NCBI GenBank assembly: GCA_030248065.1
Contig: JASAMV010003402.1
Coordinates: 1 to 64,000, forward strand
DNA: 64,000 bases
Reading direction: 5' to 3'
From: Rhynchonema sp. JSB1_4
Taxonomy: Eukaryota; Nematoda; Chromadorea; Monhysterida; Xyalidae
The translations under genes and the position numbers were made by a program. Shown one piece after another: positions 10,010 through 46,073 of this stretch. Positions within the stretch are counted from its first letter, which is position 1; the number at the start of each line of letters is the position of its first letter. A model generated the notes under the pieces. It was not told the origin of the DNA. It saw nothing but the letters and a program-made list of their open reading frames with translations, and did no database searches.

Positions 10010-10147
10010 CTGCACGGAAACAAGCGCGGATATCAATCCTTTCTTTACCCGAAAGGTGGGCGGGTGGGTGGGTGCAACCACAACAATAACTTATTGCCGG
10101 TAAATTTCACAGACCACATACATGTCGACTTGCGACCACCAAACAAT

Positions 10148-10217
10148 GTTCCTGAGAGGACTCGAACCTCCGACCTCCCAACCGGTCAGGCGCTCTATCC
10201 AACTGAGCTACAGGAAC
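10148..10217 (-). tRNA. tRNA-like sequence, copy 1, anticodon unresolved
   Basis: The minus strand gives a perfect 7-bp acceptor stem (GTTCCTG/CAGGAAC), an A box TAGCTCAGTTGGATAGAGC, and a B box GGTTCGAGTCC in a good T-arm. The anticodon arm is poor: the loop region is ACCGGTTGGG with C rather than T at the usual position 33, and the variable region is 2-3 bases too short. It is therefore a tRNA-derived or decayed gene rather than a clear functional tRNA, and no amino acid is assigned. Confidence 0.6.
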
Positions 10218-10576
10218 GAGCTCAGTGGCCGCACTAACCACTTCATAAACCGAACGATACGCAGTGCACCGCAGCGCACACACACAATTCTCTCCTCGTA
10301 TAACGTTACGCTGCAGGGACAATGCCACATAAGCACAGCGTATAATATTCTCGGGCTCGTAATACGCGGTGTGTGTCTATTCGCCAGACCACACTACCCC
10401 CCTCCCAGGCGGGGCTGACCTCAGACCAAGCTCAGGCCAAATCGCGTATCGCGTATCGCCCAATCTGACTCCGAAATCAGAAGGCTGTCTAGCCCGATTC
10501 GGCTTCGAACGCCGTTCATCGGACTTGTCCCATCACGTCGGGCTCACCAATTGTCGACTTGCGACCACCAAACAAT

Positions 10577-10646
10577 GTTCCTGAGAGGACTCGAACCTCC
10601 GACCTCCCAACCGGTCAGGCGCTCTATCCAACTGAGCTACAGGAAC
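10577..10646 (-). tRNA. tRNA-like sequence, copy 2
   Basis: Same 70-base sequence as at 10,148-10,217, within the second unit of the tandem duplication, with the same intact acceptor, D and T arms and the same defective anticodon arm. Identity of the copies could reflect recent duplication rather than selection. Confidence 0.6.
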
Positions 10647-37015: not shown

Positions 37016-38007
37016 TCAGACACGAGTTGGTGAGCTGGCGCGTTCAAACTTCGGATGCCACGTCGGTTTAACTGTGACCCGTTCACTGATTGGACGGAGC
37101 ACAGCAGTTAGATGGGTGCGCGGTCTTTGCGATGGACGCGTGAATTGCAAGTTGTACTTTTTGAAGTACTTGGAAATGTCCTTCAGCCCCTTTTCTTCCT
37201 TTTCCTTCATAATGTCGAAATTCTTGATCTTGTCTTTCCACTCTTTCTGCACGAACCGGTCCTCGAGATCGTCTTTTGGCGCTAAATTATGTCGGATGCA
37301 TACAGCACACTCACACGCACGCTTTACACACTCTTCTGAGGTATCAATACGTATGTATAGATCAGGGTACCGCGCATGGTCCGATAGCTCACGTAGGAAA
37401 GGATTTTTTGGTGGTCGCGTCAGCAGTATCAGGGTTGGCTTAAAAAAAAGTAAAATGATTTAGGAAAATTTTTTTAAAAAGAGTTCGCCGCTTTCTCGGT
37501 TTTTAAAAGTTAGAAAAGTAAGCTCACTTTTTTTAATATTTCACAACCTTTTTATATAAATTTTTTTTGATCCAGCCCTGAGCCGTATAGTAAACAGCCT
37601 CAGCAAAAGCGAATTTTGGCTTCAAAAATTTCAAAAACCGTCAGAAAGTTAATATCATCGCAAGCAAAGTCGATATCTCCAACGTTGACAGATTCGTTTC
37701 GAGAAACAAGCCCATTTCACCAACTATTGCCATACGCTGATGCCCATGGCGTGCCAACACTGGCTTTCGAGAAATCGCGCGTCACCGCGCGTATCGTCTT
37801 GTCATGCTGTCGTTGCAGTTTCTCCGCTTTCAACTGTCTGGCCAGTTGTTCGCTGTCAATCAATTTCGATTCGATGTACTCGCGACGTATTTTCGGTGGC
37901 TGTCGGCGTCGTTGTTGTTGTTGTTGTTTTGGCGGTGCCCCGGTGCTCAGTGCCACAAACAGCAACACACAGGACACGGCGATGATTGGCTGATGCTTGG
38001 TCATCAT
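37016..38007 (-). CDS. secreted basic protein, 223 residues, unrecognised
   Basis: Exon 1 is 38,007-37,759 and exon 2 is 37,438-37,016 (TGA). Exon 1 encodes a clear signal peptide (MMTKHQPIIAVSCVLLFVAL) followed by a Gln/Arg-rich basic stretch (KQQQQQRRRQPP) and a helical charged region. Exon 2 has CVKRACECAVC followed by a lysine-rich helix (KEKEEKGLKDISKYFKKY) and a basic Pro/Arg/Thr tail. The donor is GTTGGC and the acceptor is the T-run and AAG end of a hAT-like MITE, so the first three codons of exon 2 would be element sequence; both sites are in phase 0. No family is recognised. A MITE of another family lies 17 bp upstream of the start codon. Confidence 0.55.
37430..37580. mobile_element. 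hAT-like MITE at an intron/exon border
   Basis: CAGGGTTGGCTTAAAAAAAA and the inverse TTTTTTGATCCAGCCCTG are flanked by AGCAGTAT (37,422-37,429) and AGCCGTAT (37,581-37,588). That is an 8-bp target duplication with one difference. On the minus strand its end reads TTTTTTTTTAAG/CCAACCCTG, which is the predicted acceptor of exon 2 of the basic secreted protein. Confidence 0.75.
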
Positions 38008-38023
38008 GGTGATATGGATGGTA

Positions 38024-38299
38024 TTGGTCGCACAAAGATCATATAAGAATTCATCAAATCAATCCGCCTGACTTTCAGGTTTGGTCATTCTTAACCACTG
38101 TTCTACTTGTGATTCTCACAAAACATTTTCATCTGAAAATAATCTAGCAGAGCACCCACGTTGCTGCGGGTCTGAAACATTTTACTGACTGCATTCTTTG
38201 TGTGTGATCGCGCAACGCAACGTCATTACCCCTTCACTTCCCTGCATCACGATTCAGGAAAAAAATTGACCAATTCTTATAAAGTCATTGTGCGACCAA
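38024..38299. mobile_element. MITE, TTGGTCGCACAATGA family, TA-flanked
   Basis: TTGGTCGCACAAAGATCATA at the left and TATAAAGTCATTGTGCGACC at the right, with TA on both outer sides. The core matches 9,361-9,624 in reverse order. It lies immediately upstream of the basic secreted protein gene, so it occupies that gene's promoter or 5' UTR. Confidence 0.85.
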
Positions 38300-39884: not shown

Positions 39885-42800
39885 ATGAGGCCAATCTCCG
39901 CTGAGCGATACCGTCACACGCCATTGAGCGAGGATCAACGGCAGGCACTTAGACACCTGCGCGCGCATGGGTTCGAGTGTAGTCACATTATCACAGAACT
40001 GCTGGTGCGTCACCGTGTGTTAACCGAAGTGGACCGTGATCGGTTAGAAGTCGGTCGACTAACCCACTACGAGCAACGCAATGCCTTAATCGAAATACTG
40101 CTGATGCGCGACAGCAAGTATGGTTATCGGCTGTTGCAAGACGCGTTGCGCGAAACCGGTCAGTACGCTCTCGCGAAGAAGCTCGAGCTCAATGACGAAG
40201 GCGAGGTAAAGACCAGCGGTCGGATCTCCGTGGCACTTTTCTTTGCTGCCCGATCAATCGGCTTTGATGTCACTGATGCGTGTACATCAAACTTTCTAAC
40301 TTTCTATGGGCGTTCGCTGTTTACAGGCTATAGGCCTCAGTACAGGCCTGATCATAGGCATAAGCATGAGCCACCTGAAAATGTCTTAAGCACATCAGTG
40401 GTGTCAGATTCGGTACACGCGCACTTTCTTCTGCTCCTGGCCGAGCGAAACTGGAAAAAATCGAGATAAACATATAAACGTGTTCTTTAATCACGAGCGA
40501 ACTTGTCGCTCTAAAGCAGTTCAACTCAGTCCTTAATTACAGGGCACTCCCAAGCAGCTTGTCATGTTATTGTCCGGTGACCCGGTTTTATTCAGCTGTA
40601 AATGTACAGCCAGTACTAATGATTCTTCCGTCTCTCTCGGCCATCACTTACTCTGAATAGTCAACTATACTTCATCAGTATTTGCACAGTGTCTGAAATG
40701 GCTTTTTTTATTTCAGGACATCGATCAAGTCGGACATAAGTTGAATGCGAGTCGAGCGGAGAATGCCAGATTGAAGGCCGAACTTGAACAACTGGTATGC
40801 TATACAGTACCAGTACATTGGTCAAAAAATTATTCAAGGTCCATGATCGCCAACCGATTTGGCAGCAGTATTCTCATTCGCAGTGTTTATTTTAGCGACA
40901 CGACAGAAGCGCAGTTCAGGAGCAACTCAAAATGGCACTCTACCACATTCAACAAGTGGAGGAAAAGCAGCAACGAAACGAGCAGGTACGGCTGTACATC
41001 GAGAGCTCCCCAGCGGCTTGCTTCCAACAGTATGCCATCTTCGAAATTACACTTTTTGAACATTTTTTCCACAAATTTCGTACACTTTTTCCATAAGGTT
41101 AAAGCTGTCCTGTCCAGAAAATGGTGGAAAAGTTTTGTTTCTCAATGTGAAGGTCGAAACACCCGGTGCGCAATTGCTGAACACCATCATTAATGTGCAT
41201 TTCCTTGCGTTTCATCGAAGCATAAGTTCTCCTTAGGAACGCGCCGAAGCATCCGAGGAGCGGAAGGCTGAGCTGGCGAGGCTGAAAGGAGAATTGAGAG
41301 AGAAAAACGCGTTGGTAAGTTTCAGAAGCATTGGCTCCGAAATGGCTGTTGATTTGCTTCCGCACAATCCTTGTAAAAACAGCTTTCGAGCTGACAAGTT
41401 CGAAAATATTTTCAACGACAACACGCAGCAGCTTGAGTTTCGCTTTTTCAGCTGTTGGACACCCAACGCCAGTGCGCCAACCTGTCTGATGGTCGGGCGC
41501 AAGGGCAGGTAGAATTGTTCACGATTTGCAGTTTTTAATGCCTAATTGGGACTCCCGCAGCCTGATCCGCCCTTGGATTAGACTTGACGGGAACCACAAG
41601 CTGAGAGACACGGTCACAAATTTGCAGGCACGAATGAGCGAAATGCAAGGCGCGATCACAGCTACCATTCGTGACCAAATGGCTAGTCAAAACGAACGAA
41701 TCGTACGTGCATTTATGTTTCCACTTTCTCCAGTGAACTACTTCGTTGTTGTTTGGAGAAAATACGTAAAAAATATAGATATGAGGATTCATTCACCCGT
41801 TGCACCCGCAACGCAATGGGTTTCGTTTGAAGCCGTTTGCGTACCGTAAAATATCAGAAACACATCTTCTTAATTTCCTGAATCTTTTCTATTTGCGAAC
41901 GCGTGTCCTGGCTATCACCCAGCAAGAATGCGCAAAAATGTTACTGAGAAAGATAATATGCCTTTTCATTTGCAGGATGTGCTGTGCAAGGAACTGCGTG
42001 CTGCACGACGGGAGACCAGCGAACAACAACAGCCATACGGCAGCGTTCAGTTGGTGGTTAGTGCGAATAATGCAATTTTGAAATGCACATTCGGGTGCAA
42101 TTTTGGGCTGAAAGTGCAGCCGTATACACACGCTAGACCGCAGTTTACACATATACACATATACACGTACACATATACACGCGCTCCACAATTTCAAACC
42201 AATTCAAATGGTTAGGCCGCACTCAGACAAACGCGAAAAGCGAAAAGCGAAAAGTTAACTTTTTGCTTTTGTCTGAGGGCAAAAGCGAAAAGTTAACTTT
42301 TCGCTTTTCGCGTTTGTCTGAGGGCAAAAGCAAAAAGTTAACTTTTCGCTTTTCGCTTTTCGCGTTTGTCTGAGGGCAAAAGCGAAAAGTTAGGCGCGCA
42401 CAAACAGCAAACATAGCGTGTGCTGTTGCTGTTCGACACATGTTTCATTCTTCAGCAAGTTCAGCTAACACGTGCATTTCTGCGCCTGCCAAACAAAACA
42501 TTTTTGTCTTCTTAAGCTGGTCCATTTTATACTATGACAACAAATTTTTGTTTGAATCATATTTTGTGATAGAGTTGGATCACCAATTTCGACCAGCGTG
42601 AAAGTTGTTCATTTGGTGCAGGGGAAAAACTTTTGCGCTGGTCGAAATTAGTGATCCATCTCTATCACAAAATATGATTCAAACAAAAATTTGTCCTCAT
42701 TGTCTACGAGCCTAAAATGGACAAGTGGTATAACTCCACCTTTAGTTTGCAACGGATGTGCAGTCAGATTTTGGGAATAAGGAATCATGATGACTTTTCG

Positions 42801-45800
42801 CTTTTTAAACTTTTCGCTTTTGCCCTCAGACAAACGCGAAAAGCGAAAAGCGAAAAGTTAACGTTTCGCTTTTGCCCTCAGACAAACGCGAAAAGCGAAA
42901 AGCGAAAAGTTAACATTTCGCTTTTGCCCTCAGACAAAAGCGAAAAGTTTTGCGACTATTAACTTTTCGCTTTTCGCTTTTCGCGTTTGTCTGAGTGCGG
43001 CCTAAGGTTTATGACGTTTCGCTACCACCAGAGTAGCATCATCAGATAAATACCCACTGAAAGATGAATAAAAGATTATGCACGGAATAAATAGTAATAA
43101 ATAAGATCTTAAAATAAATAATAAATAAAATCTTATTTATTACTATTTATTCCGTGCATAATCTTTTATTCATCTTTCAGTGGGTATTTATCTGATGATG
43201 CTACTCTGGTGGTAGCGAAACGTCATAAACCTAACCATTTGAATTGGTTTGAAATTGTGGAGCGCGTGCCAAAAAGCAAAACAACAACATCAGTTTGTTT
43301 GCTCATCGCCGTTCATGAAACCAGGGTTGGGCAAAAAAATTTTTTTTTTTAAAAAAGGTTTTTGAAAAAAAATTAAAAAAAAATTTTTTTTTTAATTTTT
43401 CGGGGGAACAAAATGTTCTAAAACGTCCAAAAATGGCCTTTTTGGGGGTTATTTTTTGTCATTTTTTCTCAAGGGTCGAAAAATTATCTTCACAAAATCA
43501 CTTTTGGGGCATGTATTTGGTATCTAAGATGCCCCAAATGATGTTATTATACCTCCCCGTGATACGTGAGACACAGTATGCATGTACTTACATGGTACTT
43601 TGATGTCATACCCCATCGAGTCGGTCATATATGTACGACTGATTCAGCGGCCCGACAAGTATTTCTGCAGCTTGTATTCTCAATTCTGTATGGTTTATGA
43701 GTGAATCTTGCTTATTCGACCACAAACCGTTGTGTCTGATACCACAGAGCAGCAATCATAGGTCCATAACAAGCACAGACTGTTGGATCGCATCGAAATG
43801 GCGTAAACACCCTTCATAAGTGATGCAAACCAAGTCACAAAAGTGACTTGTCAATTAAAGTTGCATTTTTTCGCGATTTTGCACGTTTTTTAGGCAAATT
43901 TGGTAAAATTTCCCCGAAACTGAGACTTTTTAAAAAAAATAAAAAAAAATTTTTTTAAAAAAAACTTGTTTACAAAAAATTTTTCCTTCCAACCCTGCCG
44001 TGATGGTGATTTGGATTTCAATTCGGATTTGACAGTTTTGAATCGCACAGGAGAATGCAAGGTTGAGGACGGAGAACGACGAGCTGAAGCGGGGACAAGA
44101 AACGATGGCGCTGAGAGTAGAGCAACTCGAACAGGTGCGACTTATTCTAAAAGCACCTATCCCCTTCCAGCAATTTATATACTTAACCTTCCAACGAATA
44201 TTTATTTCAGAATTGGGCATTTTGGGTATAGAAACAGTAAGGTTGATTTACCATCGTCGTACCAGCTTGGCATGTAGAGCTTCAGGTTGGTACTGGTCGC
44301 ACAATGACTATATAAGAATTGGTTAATAATTTTTTTCCTGAATCGCGAAGAGGGAAAGTGACGGGGCCATGACGTTGCGTTGCGCAATCACACACAAGCC
44401 ATGCAGTCACCAAAATGTTTCAGAACTGTGGCAACGTGGGTGCCGTGCCGGATTATTTGGAGCTGTAAATGTTTTGTCAAAAATACAAATAGCATAGTGG
44501 TTAAGGTTGAACCTGAAGATCAGGGTAGATGAATTCTGATTTACTCATTGTGGCGACCAAAACCAGTTATATTAGGGGAAGGTGGAAGATTGCAAATTCT
44601 GCAGCGTCGGATAGTTCAAAATACCAATTTTCTGGTTATAAAACAGTTGATGGGACCACTTGTCTATTTGTTAACCAAGGCAGTGCTGTTACTGTCCATC
44701 AATAATATCAGCATAGTTTGCAATACGCACTTCAGCAGCAGCCAGAGTCAGCTGGACCGCAGCGCGACAATGCTGACATCGATCGTAATGATCCCATTGC
44801 AGCATTGCAGGTCGATGTTGTGGGTCTGCAGGTAATGTACCTATACATCTAGTACACATACAATAAGAACACTATCCTTTACCTGTCAATGCTTTTCGAA
44901 GATCGTCTTCCAAGGACTTTTACATTAGTAGCGGTGCCGCTTTGCAACTAAATCCAATAAACGTCGTTATTTTTTACGAAATTCTGGGGGGCCATAAGAT
45001 TGATACCTGGCACCTGGAAGTTTCCGGCTGTTGGCGTTTCCCTGGTGGTTTTGGTCACAATTTATGCATGTAAACGTTTTTATTGCGTCTAAAAAACTTG
45101 AAATGCAAAACCATATGATGCAGTGTCGGTGTTTGACAGACAGCCAACGTGTTCAAAAATCCAACCAGCAGTTTCGAATGACTTGTACGTGGCATTTGCG
45201 GTGGTTTTTTTGTGTGTATTGTGTACACAATAATGGCAGATGCGCTCAACATATACCAAATACGGTAACCAAATTGTTCCCCGCCACAGCGGGCGGTGTC
45301 AACTTTGCTGGCGAGCGCCTTGACATGGGTTTGGCAAGGCATAGGCATGACAAGGGCAAATTTTGTTTGAGCTGCATTTTGCGATAGCGTTGCGGCACTA
45401 ATTTCGCCCAGCGTAAAAAAGTCCCCTTCATCAAATGAACAACTTTTACGCTGGTCTAAACCAGTGCGCCAAGTCTGTCCGAAAATACACAGCTCAACCA
45501 AAATTTGCCTGTACTGTATGTCTTGCCAACCTCATGCCAAAGCGATTGTTATCAAACTTAATGCCACCACCCTACATTTGCAGCGTCAAATGGTCGCGTT
45601 GGCCCCTGAAGTCGAGCACCATCAGGATCAGATTGATCGTCTGCAAGACGAAGATCGACGAATTGTAAGTACAGCACTGTGCATGTTAGATTAAAGCTGC
45701 TGCTGCTGATCAAGACTTTTTTGATTGGATAGTGTTGTCGAAGCCATCTTTTTGGATCTGGATTGAAAGACAGGCTGGCGATCGAGATCCCGTTCAAACC

Positions 45801-46073
45801 CGCGTACTGCGCTGCCCCCAAGATCAAACGCGGTCGGATGGGTATTGATTGACCAGCAGCTGTTGTAAAACATCCCACGGTTTGTAGCTGGTCAACATCG
45901 AGCGTCTGACTCGTCGTCCCACGTACGTGATTGGCGGTGTGTTCAATGTCGGTCCCGGCTGGCAGTCGTGGCTTGTGTTCCTTGTCGTGGCTGGCTGTGC
46001 ATTCCTCGTGCTCCTCTACTTGTACTTCCGAGTGGCCAGTTCGTCGTATGCCATCAGCCACTTCCGCATCTGA
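39885..46073 (+). CDS. CARD, coiled-coil, C-terminal transmembrane protein
   Basis: Eleven exons, all joins phase 0: 39,885-40,205; 40,717-40,794; 40,896-40,985; 41,237-41,314; 41,452-41,508; 41,601-41,702; 41,976-42,053; 44,051-44,134; 44,736-44,831; 45,584-45,664; 45,888-46,073 (TGA). The product is about 416 residues. Residues 14-100 form a CARD-like death fold: LSEDQRQALRHLRAHGFECS, HRVLTEVDRDRLE, NALIEILLMRDSKYGYRLL and ALRETGQYALAKKLEL follow the helix pattern of CARDs in RAIDD and Apaf-1. Exons 2-10 are coiled coil, roughly one small exon per 26-34 residues (SRAENARLKAELEQL, EERKAELARLKGELREKN, ARLRTENDELKRG). The last exon has one transmembrane segment (SWLVFLVVAGCAFLVLLYLY) and a 14-residue tail after it. 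The likely topology is tail-anchored, with the CARD in the cytosol. CARD-TM proteins such as MAVS and CARD19 signal from membranes; a long coiled coil between is unusual. The exon 6 acceptor is the least certain. Confidence 0.8.
42183..43264. mobile_element. nested palindromic elements in a CARD-gene intron
   Basis: The outer element has CGCTCCACAATTTCAAACC and AAATGGTTAGG at the left and exact inverses at 43,234-43,264. Its body at 43,004-43,233 is itself a near-perfect palindrome (CGTTTCGCTACCACCAGAGT ... ACTCTGGTGGTAGCGAAACG). The PIF/Harbinger-like element at 42,215-43,002 is inserted in its left arm: removing it restores the mirror image of the right arm. The order of events can therefore be read directly. 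Confidence 0.85.
42215..43002. mobile_element. PIF/Harbinger-like MITE, GGCCGCACTCAGACAA ends
   Basis: Ends GGCCGCACTCAGACAAACGC and the inverse, flanked by TTA at the left and TAA at the right. Arms are repeats of GCGAAAAGCGAAAAGTTAAC and GTCTGAGGGC. The core (42,537-42,700) is another palindrome with TTTCGACCAGCG. The TWA target and GGCC ends suit PIF/Harbinger. The relative at 49,036-49,377 has an exact TTA duplication. Confidence 0.75.
43322..43999. mobile_element. hAT-like element, CAGGGTTGGGC ends
   Basis: CAGGGTTGGGCAAAAAAATT at the left and CCTTCCAACCCTG at the right, with long A and T runs next to each end. The core, about 43,440-43,900, has no reading frame of note. Flanking octamers CATGAAAC and CCGTGATG do not match, so either one end has moved or the boundaries are off. 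It ends about 50 bases before exon 8 of the CARD gene. Confidence 0.6.
44293..44560. mobile_element. MITE, TTGGTCGCACAATGA family
   Basis: TACTGGTCGCACAATGACTA at the left and TTACTCATTGTGGCGACCAA at the right. The core has the CCTGAATCG, GAGGGAAAGTGACGGGG and GGTTAAGGTTGAACCTGAAG blocks of the family. It lies in the intron before exon 9 of the CARD gene. Confidence 0.8.
45390..45472. repeat. short palindromic element, TTTCGACCAGCG family
   Basis: CACTAATTTCGCCCAGCGTA at the left and the inverse TACGCTGGTCTAAACCAGTG at the right around AAATGAACAACTTT. It lies in the intron between exons 9 and 10 of the CARD gene. Confidence 0.65.

Follow-up and report, generated by a model that had tools for sequence, protein, structure and literature searches.

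A candidate tail-anchored CARD protein with a long predicted coiled coil

The putative gene described here occupies part of a 64,000-nucleotide stretch of DNA (the window) and raises the question of whether one protein combines a CARD at its N-terminus, a long coiled coil and a membrane helix at its C-terminus, and what such a protein would do. CARD adaptors on membranes determine the site at which antiviral and death signals are put together. If the reading developed below is true, the locus would be a concrete candidate for a missing step in a protostome that has RIG-I-type domains and CARD-caspase and CARD-ankyrin neighbours, and it would represent a second way of building a membrane CARD platform.

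Gene structure and coding signal

The initial annotation had proposed eleven phase-0 exons, all of which are present on the plus strand between 39,885 and 46,073 with GT/AG borders and lengths divisible by three (Table 1). A single frame runs from the ATG at 39,885 to the stop at 46,073, yielding a model of 407 residues. The annotated length of 416 residues does not hold for this model; it fits an exon 6 that starts at 41,601 instead of 41,628, and the longer version thus probably reflects a start 27 bases upstream that adds nine residues. The acceptor at 41,601 is without a pyrimidine stretch, yet the nine extra residues raise the coiled-coil score, and so the choice between these two candidate acceptors is left open.

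Table 1. Exons and predicted membrane helix of the candidate gene (window coordinates).
Feature	Position	Strand	Content	Basis
Exon 1	39885..40205	+	Residues 1-107, CARD	Paralogue matches, profiles, AF2, Foldseek, VIA-align
Exon 2	40717..40794	+	26 aa, coiled coil	Splice borders, COILS, coding score
Exon 3	40896..40985	+	30 aa, coiled coil	Splice borders, COILS, coding score
Exon 4	41237..41314	+	26 aa, coiled coil	Splice borders, COILS, coding score
Exon 5	41452..41508	+	19 aa, weak coiled coil, then break	Splice borders, COILS, coding score
Exon 6	41628..41702	+	25 aa; alternative acceptor 41601	Splice borders, COILS, coding score
Exon 7	41976..42053	+	26 aa, coiled coil to glutamine/proline break	Splice borders, COILS, coding score
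Exon 8	44051..44134	+	28 aa, coiled coil	Splice borders, COILS, coding score
Exon 9	44736..44831	+	32 aa, mostly linker outside coiled coil	Splice borders, COILS, coding score
Exon 10	45584..45664	+	27 aa, coiled coil	Splice borders, COILS, coding score
Exon 11	45888..46073	+	Residues 347-407, stop codon; juxtamembrane stretch, then hydrophobic helix and 14-residue tail	Splice borders, genome search, Kyte-Doolittle; lowest coding score	
Predicted transmembrane helix	45966..46028	+	Residues about 373-393	Kyte-Doolittle 2.69, limits by eye

Introns range from 101 to 1997 bases, and their GC content is 41%, compared with 55% in exons. At codon positions 1, 2 and 3, GC is 0.66, 0.36 and 0.62 in exon 1 and 0.68, 0.37 and 0.59 in exons 2-11. 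A coding score was computed from the codon frequencies of ankyrin and CARD stretches in the same genome, with exon 1 excluded, and was set against 1879 stop-free AG..GT segments from the remainder of the window. The proposed frame has the highest score of the three forward frames in all eleven exons, and each of exons 1-10 is equalled or exceeded by only 1 to 31 of the 1879 background segments; exons 2-10 look coding. Exon 11 is the weakest, with 111 of the 1879 segments scoring as high or higher and one reverse-strand frame outscoring the proposed one (0.24 versus 0.10).

Within intron 7 resides a nested foldback (42178-43268). Its perfect inverted ends, 39 bases each, are at 42178-42216 and 43230-43268; there is also a perfect inner pair of 47 bases, and at 43005-43232 a palindrome whose 107-base arms are 99% complementary. 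This arrangement looks like mobile elements inserted within one another.

The CARD and its relatives in the genome

On its own, exon 1 matches the Pfam family PF16739 (CARD_2) weakly, at 16.3 bits (E 0.0097) and thus below the cut-off of 28.2, and it also matches HTH_21 at E 0.032. PF00619 is not among its Pfam matches, and the 407-residue model matches no CARD family at E≤0.1. Despite the weak match to exon 1 alone, PF16739 finds nothing in the genome at E≤1.

Comparison with other loci in the genome places the domain more firmly. The best paralogue of exon 1 in the assembly searched (204 Mb, 5747 contigs) matches at E 4e-12. Eight of 16 other genomic CARD matches were aligned, two of these from contig C848, and the other eight were excluded from the alignment (C2137, two of C586, C3686, C2672, two of C5421, and C1215). 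A profile of the eight aligned stretches, built without exon 1, gives exon 1 a score of 83.9 bits, compared with 9.8 bits for the best of 1000 shuffles. The same profile finds the CARD of APAF-1 at E 3.3e-6 and also matches those of caspase-1, ICEBERG, cIAP1 and CED-3 at E≤0.0023 and that of RAIDD at 0.053. By profile score, APAF-1 (E 4.6e-6) comes ahead of CARD11 (E 0.93). Seven of the nine aligned CARD members match PF00619 at E≤10, the best at 7.3e-8, and exon 1 is not one of them.

An AF2 model of exon 1 (pLDDT 75.5, pTM 0.67) contains helices at residues 16-27, 34-42, 48-55, 61-72, 77-90 and 94-99, which is the six-helix arrangement of a predicted death fold. Because exon 1 belongs to a paralogue family whose profile finds the APAF-1 CARD, it is, by sequence homology, a CARD and a member of a CARD family in this genome despite its weak Pfam match. 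The N-terminal CARD-like fold of the initial annotation is upheld in this way by homology and by fold prediction; profile comparison of residues 1-107 succeeds through the paralogues and falls short for the Pfam score of the exon itself. By profile, the closest solved CARDs are those of APAF-1, CED-3 and caspase-1. These proteins carry NB-ARC or caspase domains, neither of which was found by Pfam in the 407-residue model.

Searches of a set of 5.8 billion proteins gave no match at E≤1 for residues 1-107 (178 candidates) or for the nine-member CARD alignment (534 candidates), and none at E≤0.001 for the full model among the 7997 candidates sharing most words with it; the animal share is uncertain in each case, and length limits left long CARD-ankyrin proteins outside the searches.

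Elsewhere in the genome, CARDs lie beside other modules. On C1056 (L034), the genome's highest-ranking Pfam CARD match lies immediately upstream of a cluster of caspase-domain exons and shares their strand. On C586, C3686, C2672 and C5421 (L030-L033), an ankyrin open reading frame (ORF) lies some kilobases downstream of each CARD, reaching 1245 aa on C2672; both CARD halves are found, in separate exons, on C586, C3686 and C5421, and the second half alone on C2672. A further ankyrin ORF lies about 4 kb downstream of the CARD on C3334. From order and strand, each of these neighbour pairs (CARD and caspase, CARD and ankyrin) probably forms one gene. Two clear Pfam CARD stretches and a doubtful middle copy share one open frame on C848 (L024:56-1147).

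RIG-I C-terminal domains are present on C1790 and C2148 (L051, L053), and helicase domains occur among the 68 ORFs of at least 62 aa counted over these two loci jointly, without assignment to one or the other. No CARD was found upstream of the RIG-I C-terminal domains by the family profile in the fetched DNA, nor by Pfam among the 68 ORFs. This absence is not decisive, since DRH-1 is also described, in the cited portion of PMC10871272, as being without annotated CARDs or similar domains. A search for NB-ARC exons, which introns weaken, gave none in the genome at E≤0.001, and a search for an IRF exon found none, with the control equally silent.

Predicted coiled coil and C-terminal helix

Exons 2-10 are predicted to encode mostly segmented coiled coil. 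COILS was re-implemented and checked on the GCN4 zipper. With a window of 28, P exceeds 0.5 at residues 101-206, 219-252, 258-289 and 308-356, four interrupted stretches that total about 220 residues; exons 5 and 9 are weak. A long coiled coil in small exons, originally put at about 250 residues, is thus borne out at a somewhat shorter length. The prediction begins close to the junction of exons 1 and 2, and residues 108-346, which are mostly predicted coiled coil, include 5 prolines among 239 residues (counted by eye).

The signal is far above background. On the sense strand of the gene region, 12 of the 110 AG..GT candidate exons (at 7 acceptor sites) reach a strong 14-residue score. The antisense strand yields 0 of 56, and the remainder of the window 1 of 1347. 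When exons are defined more strictly and the window is 21 residues long, the region has 7 passing candidates among 23, at two acceptor sites, one of which differs from the exon-6 acceptor in the 407-residue model, and 0 of 5 pass on the other strand. In 13 CARD-paralogue loci of about 10 kb, scanned on both strands, 0 of 770 candidates pass, so that none of the other CARD genes examined shows a coiled coil nearby. Downstream of the CARD, up to about 9.5 kb, none of these 13 loci has a coiled-coil exon candidate. A search of the genome with the coiled coil itself found no second copy at E≤1.

Exon 11 contributes the only strongly hydrophobic segment. Its best 19-residue Kyte-Doolittle mean is 2.69, at residue 375, compared with 1.21 for the best segment outside starts 361-399. 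The sequence therefore has the predicted form of a tail-anchored protein, with a single hydrophobic helix at about residues 373-393 of 407, no N-terminal signal and a tail of 14 residues that includes two arginines, in agreement with the single C-terminal transmembrane helix and short tail first proposed. Exon 11 keeps the phase and begins at an AG acceptor, and no other hydrophobic last-exon candidate occurs in the region. Scanning 26 strands of about 10 kb each gave 7 rows with such candidates by chance. Exon 11 alone also matches DUF4199 (E 0.0016; 19.4 bits against a cut-off of 32.3) and has no other copy in the genome at E≤10. Since hydrophobic last-exon candidates also arise by chance, the membrane anchor in exon 11 is likely rather than proven, and tail anchoring depends on the weakest exon of the model.

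Relation to known CARD proteins and a proposed role

Similar comparisons can be drawn with characterized CARD proteins. MAVS, like the predicted protein, has an N-terminal CARD and a single C-terminal transmembrane helix, and RIG-I C-terminal domains are encoded in the same genome. However, according to the cited passages of PMC5557890, the middle of MAVS is proline-rich, whereas here it comprises about 240 residues of mostly coiled coil with five prolines, and oyster CgMAVS carries a Death domain, unlike this gene. In oyster MAVS the transmembrane helix is required both for self-association and for binding of RIG-I CARDs (PMC5557890, same passages). Identity as MAVS was not adopted, on the basis of the long coiled coil and the scarcity of prolines in the middle region.

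CARD19 (BinCARD) is, with MAVS, a membrane CARD protein; it consists of a CARD and one transmembrane helix and is located in the mitochondrial outer membrane, where it interacts with MICOS/MIB proteins and has an effect on cristae (PMC8997538, passages cited). The gene described here likewise has a CARD and a single, predicted, transmembrane helix. In CARD19 the helix is more central and is followed by residues 147-183 (PMC8997538, passages cited), whereas here the tail has 14 residues and about 265 residues separate the CARD from the helix. The account of CARD19 in the main text of that paper does not mention a coiled coil, which is long in the present protein.

In the CARD-CC family (CARD9, CARD10, CARD11, CARD14 and invertebrate CARD-CC), the CARD is directly followed by coiled coil, and the same order is found here. 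The differences are the predicted C-terminal anchor and a CARD profile closest to APAF-1, which reaches CARD11 only at E 0.93. Identity as a CARD9/CARMA protein was not adopted. CARD-CC proteins, defined by a CARD and a coiled coil, are reported only from species with Bcl10, and Bcl10 is reported to be missing from Ecdysozoa (PMC5978004, passages cited). The contrast drawn in the initial annotation, whereby MAVS lacks such a coiled coil and CARD9/CARMA proteins lack an anchor, holds in the literature passages covered. No protein joining CARD, coiled coil and anchor was found among the matches listed, judged by title and abstract opening and including few subscription papers; within that coverage, the union of these domains in one putative CARD adaptor appears to be undescribed.

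Our preferred reading, offered tentatively as a realistic possibility, is a tail-anchored CARD adaptor that forms a coiled-coil-multimerised membrane platform with MAVS-like action. In MAVS and CARMA-type systems, clustered CARDs nucleate filaments. Here, the C-terminal helix would hold the protein in a cytosol-facing membrane, and the segmented coiled coil could join chains in parallel and space the CARDs away from the membrane. CARDs clustered in this manner might seed assembly, through CARD-CARD contacts, with further CARD proteins encoded in the genome, conceivably the products of CARD-ankyrin, multi-CARD or CARD-caspase loci and possibly RIG-I-like helicases. A CARD-ankyrin protein or a RIG-I-like helicase could serve as the upstream sensor and a CARD-caspase as the downstream enzyme, which would turn the membrane into a platform for defence or cell-death signalling.

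This reading is supported by the CARD homology, the coiled coil above background and the single helix near the C-terminus, as well as by the possible partner loci and the analogues MAVS, CARD19 and oyster MAVS. It is weakened by the low coding score of exon 11, the chance hydrophobic candidates and the DUF4199 match, and also by the searches described above, which found neither a CARD ahead of the RIG-I C-terminal domains nor an NB-ARC exon. The structural part of the original interpretation (CARD, coiled coil and single C-terminal hydrophobic helix) stands as a computational result, as do the gene model and the other loci; the adaptor role and the organelle, together with membrane insertion, a parallel multimer, its partners and the output of the platform, are what we infer. 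A bolder extension, which seems doubtful, is that a MAVS-like adaptor evolved independently in a lineage thought to be without MAVS and CARD-CC; its tail-anchored coiled coil would keep CARDs ready for seeding by RIG-I-like helicases or CARD-ankyrin sensors and would hand the signal on to CARD-caspases.

An unlikely but serious alternative is a soluble CARD-coiled-coil scaffold resembling CARD9, the main product of which would end after exon 10 without an anchor; exon 11 could then belong to another transcript or be used alternatively, or intron 10 could be retained. Anchorless CARD-CC proteins are a known class (PMC5978004, passages cited), exon 11 is the least coding-like exon, and the exon-10 frame, if continued into intron 10, stops after nine residues. 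Against this, exon 11 offers its phase, its acceptor, its best-scoring forward frame and its standing as the sole hydrophobic last-exon candidate in the region. The host may also be ecdysozoan. The reported restriction of CARD-CC to species with Bcl10, and the reported absence of the latter from Ecdysozoa, further argue against a soluble scaffold (PMC5978004, passages cited).

We regard it as improbable that the gene encodes a membrane CARD protein whose work is structural or in trafficking, be it as a golgin-like tether or in shaping mitochondria as has been proposed for CARD19, and whose CARD would be a binding module outside any signalling cascade. Coiled coil with a C-terminal anchor is indeed the plan of golgins, SLMAP and similar tethers, and in the genome searches the coiled coil and tail showed no second copy, in contrast to the CARD with its multi-gene family. 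The association of CARD19 with MICOS/MIB and cristae points the same way (PMC8997538, passages cited), but the kinship of this CARD to those adjoining caspase and ankyrin modules suits signalling. Also very unlikely is a pair of adjacent genes, one encoding only a CARD in a single exon (exon 1 extended to the stop at 40,467-40,469) and the other a coiled-coil membrane protein. The exon-1 frame does stay open for 87 codons past its donor, and the 13 paralogue loci are all without a coiled-coil exon candidate downstream. However, exon 1 has a donor whose phase matches exon 2, the predicted coiled coil sets in close to the junction of the two, and the GC content at each codon position of exon 1 agrees with that of exons 2-11. 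In addition, the exon-2 frame has no ATG from the last upstream stop (before 40,657) to its donor, so that a separate coiled-coil gene would need a further first exon. Codon-position GC, the in-frame coding scores and the coiled-coil enrichment led us to reject two genes, or a chance assembly of exons, as the main reading.

As for the host, COX1 on C2636, assumed to be a host contig, was compared with the best solved COX1, which we take to be mammalian. TGA falls at tryptophan in 9 of 9 positions, AAA at lysine in 3 of 4, AGA at serine in 5 of 9 and ATA at methionine in 7 of 15, a codon use that fits the invertebrate mitochondrial code and hence a protostome. The encoded protein presumably resembles nematode COX1; the nematode SL1 leader, queried with up to 2 mismatches allowed, is absent.

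Other features of the window lie outside the gene. An open frame on the minus strand at 37720-38058, just upstream of the CARD gene, starts like a secreted protein, with a hydrophobic start followed by a glutamine/arginine-rich portion. Two minus-strand tRNA genes of equal score, 429 bases apart (10147-10217 and 10576-10646), are both given a two-base anticodon by ARAGORN. Pfam was applied outside the gene to 93 of the 1257 window ORFs, and one of these flanking ORFs, which a pattern search did not locate, contains a Kunitz-type inhibitor domain (E 1.8e-20).
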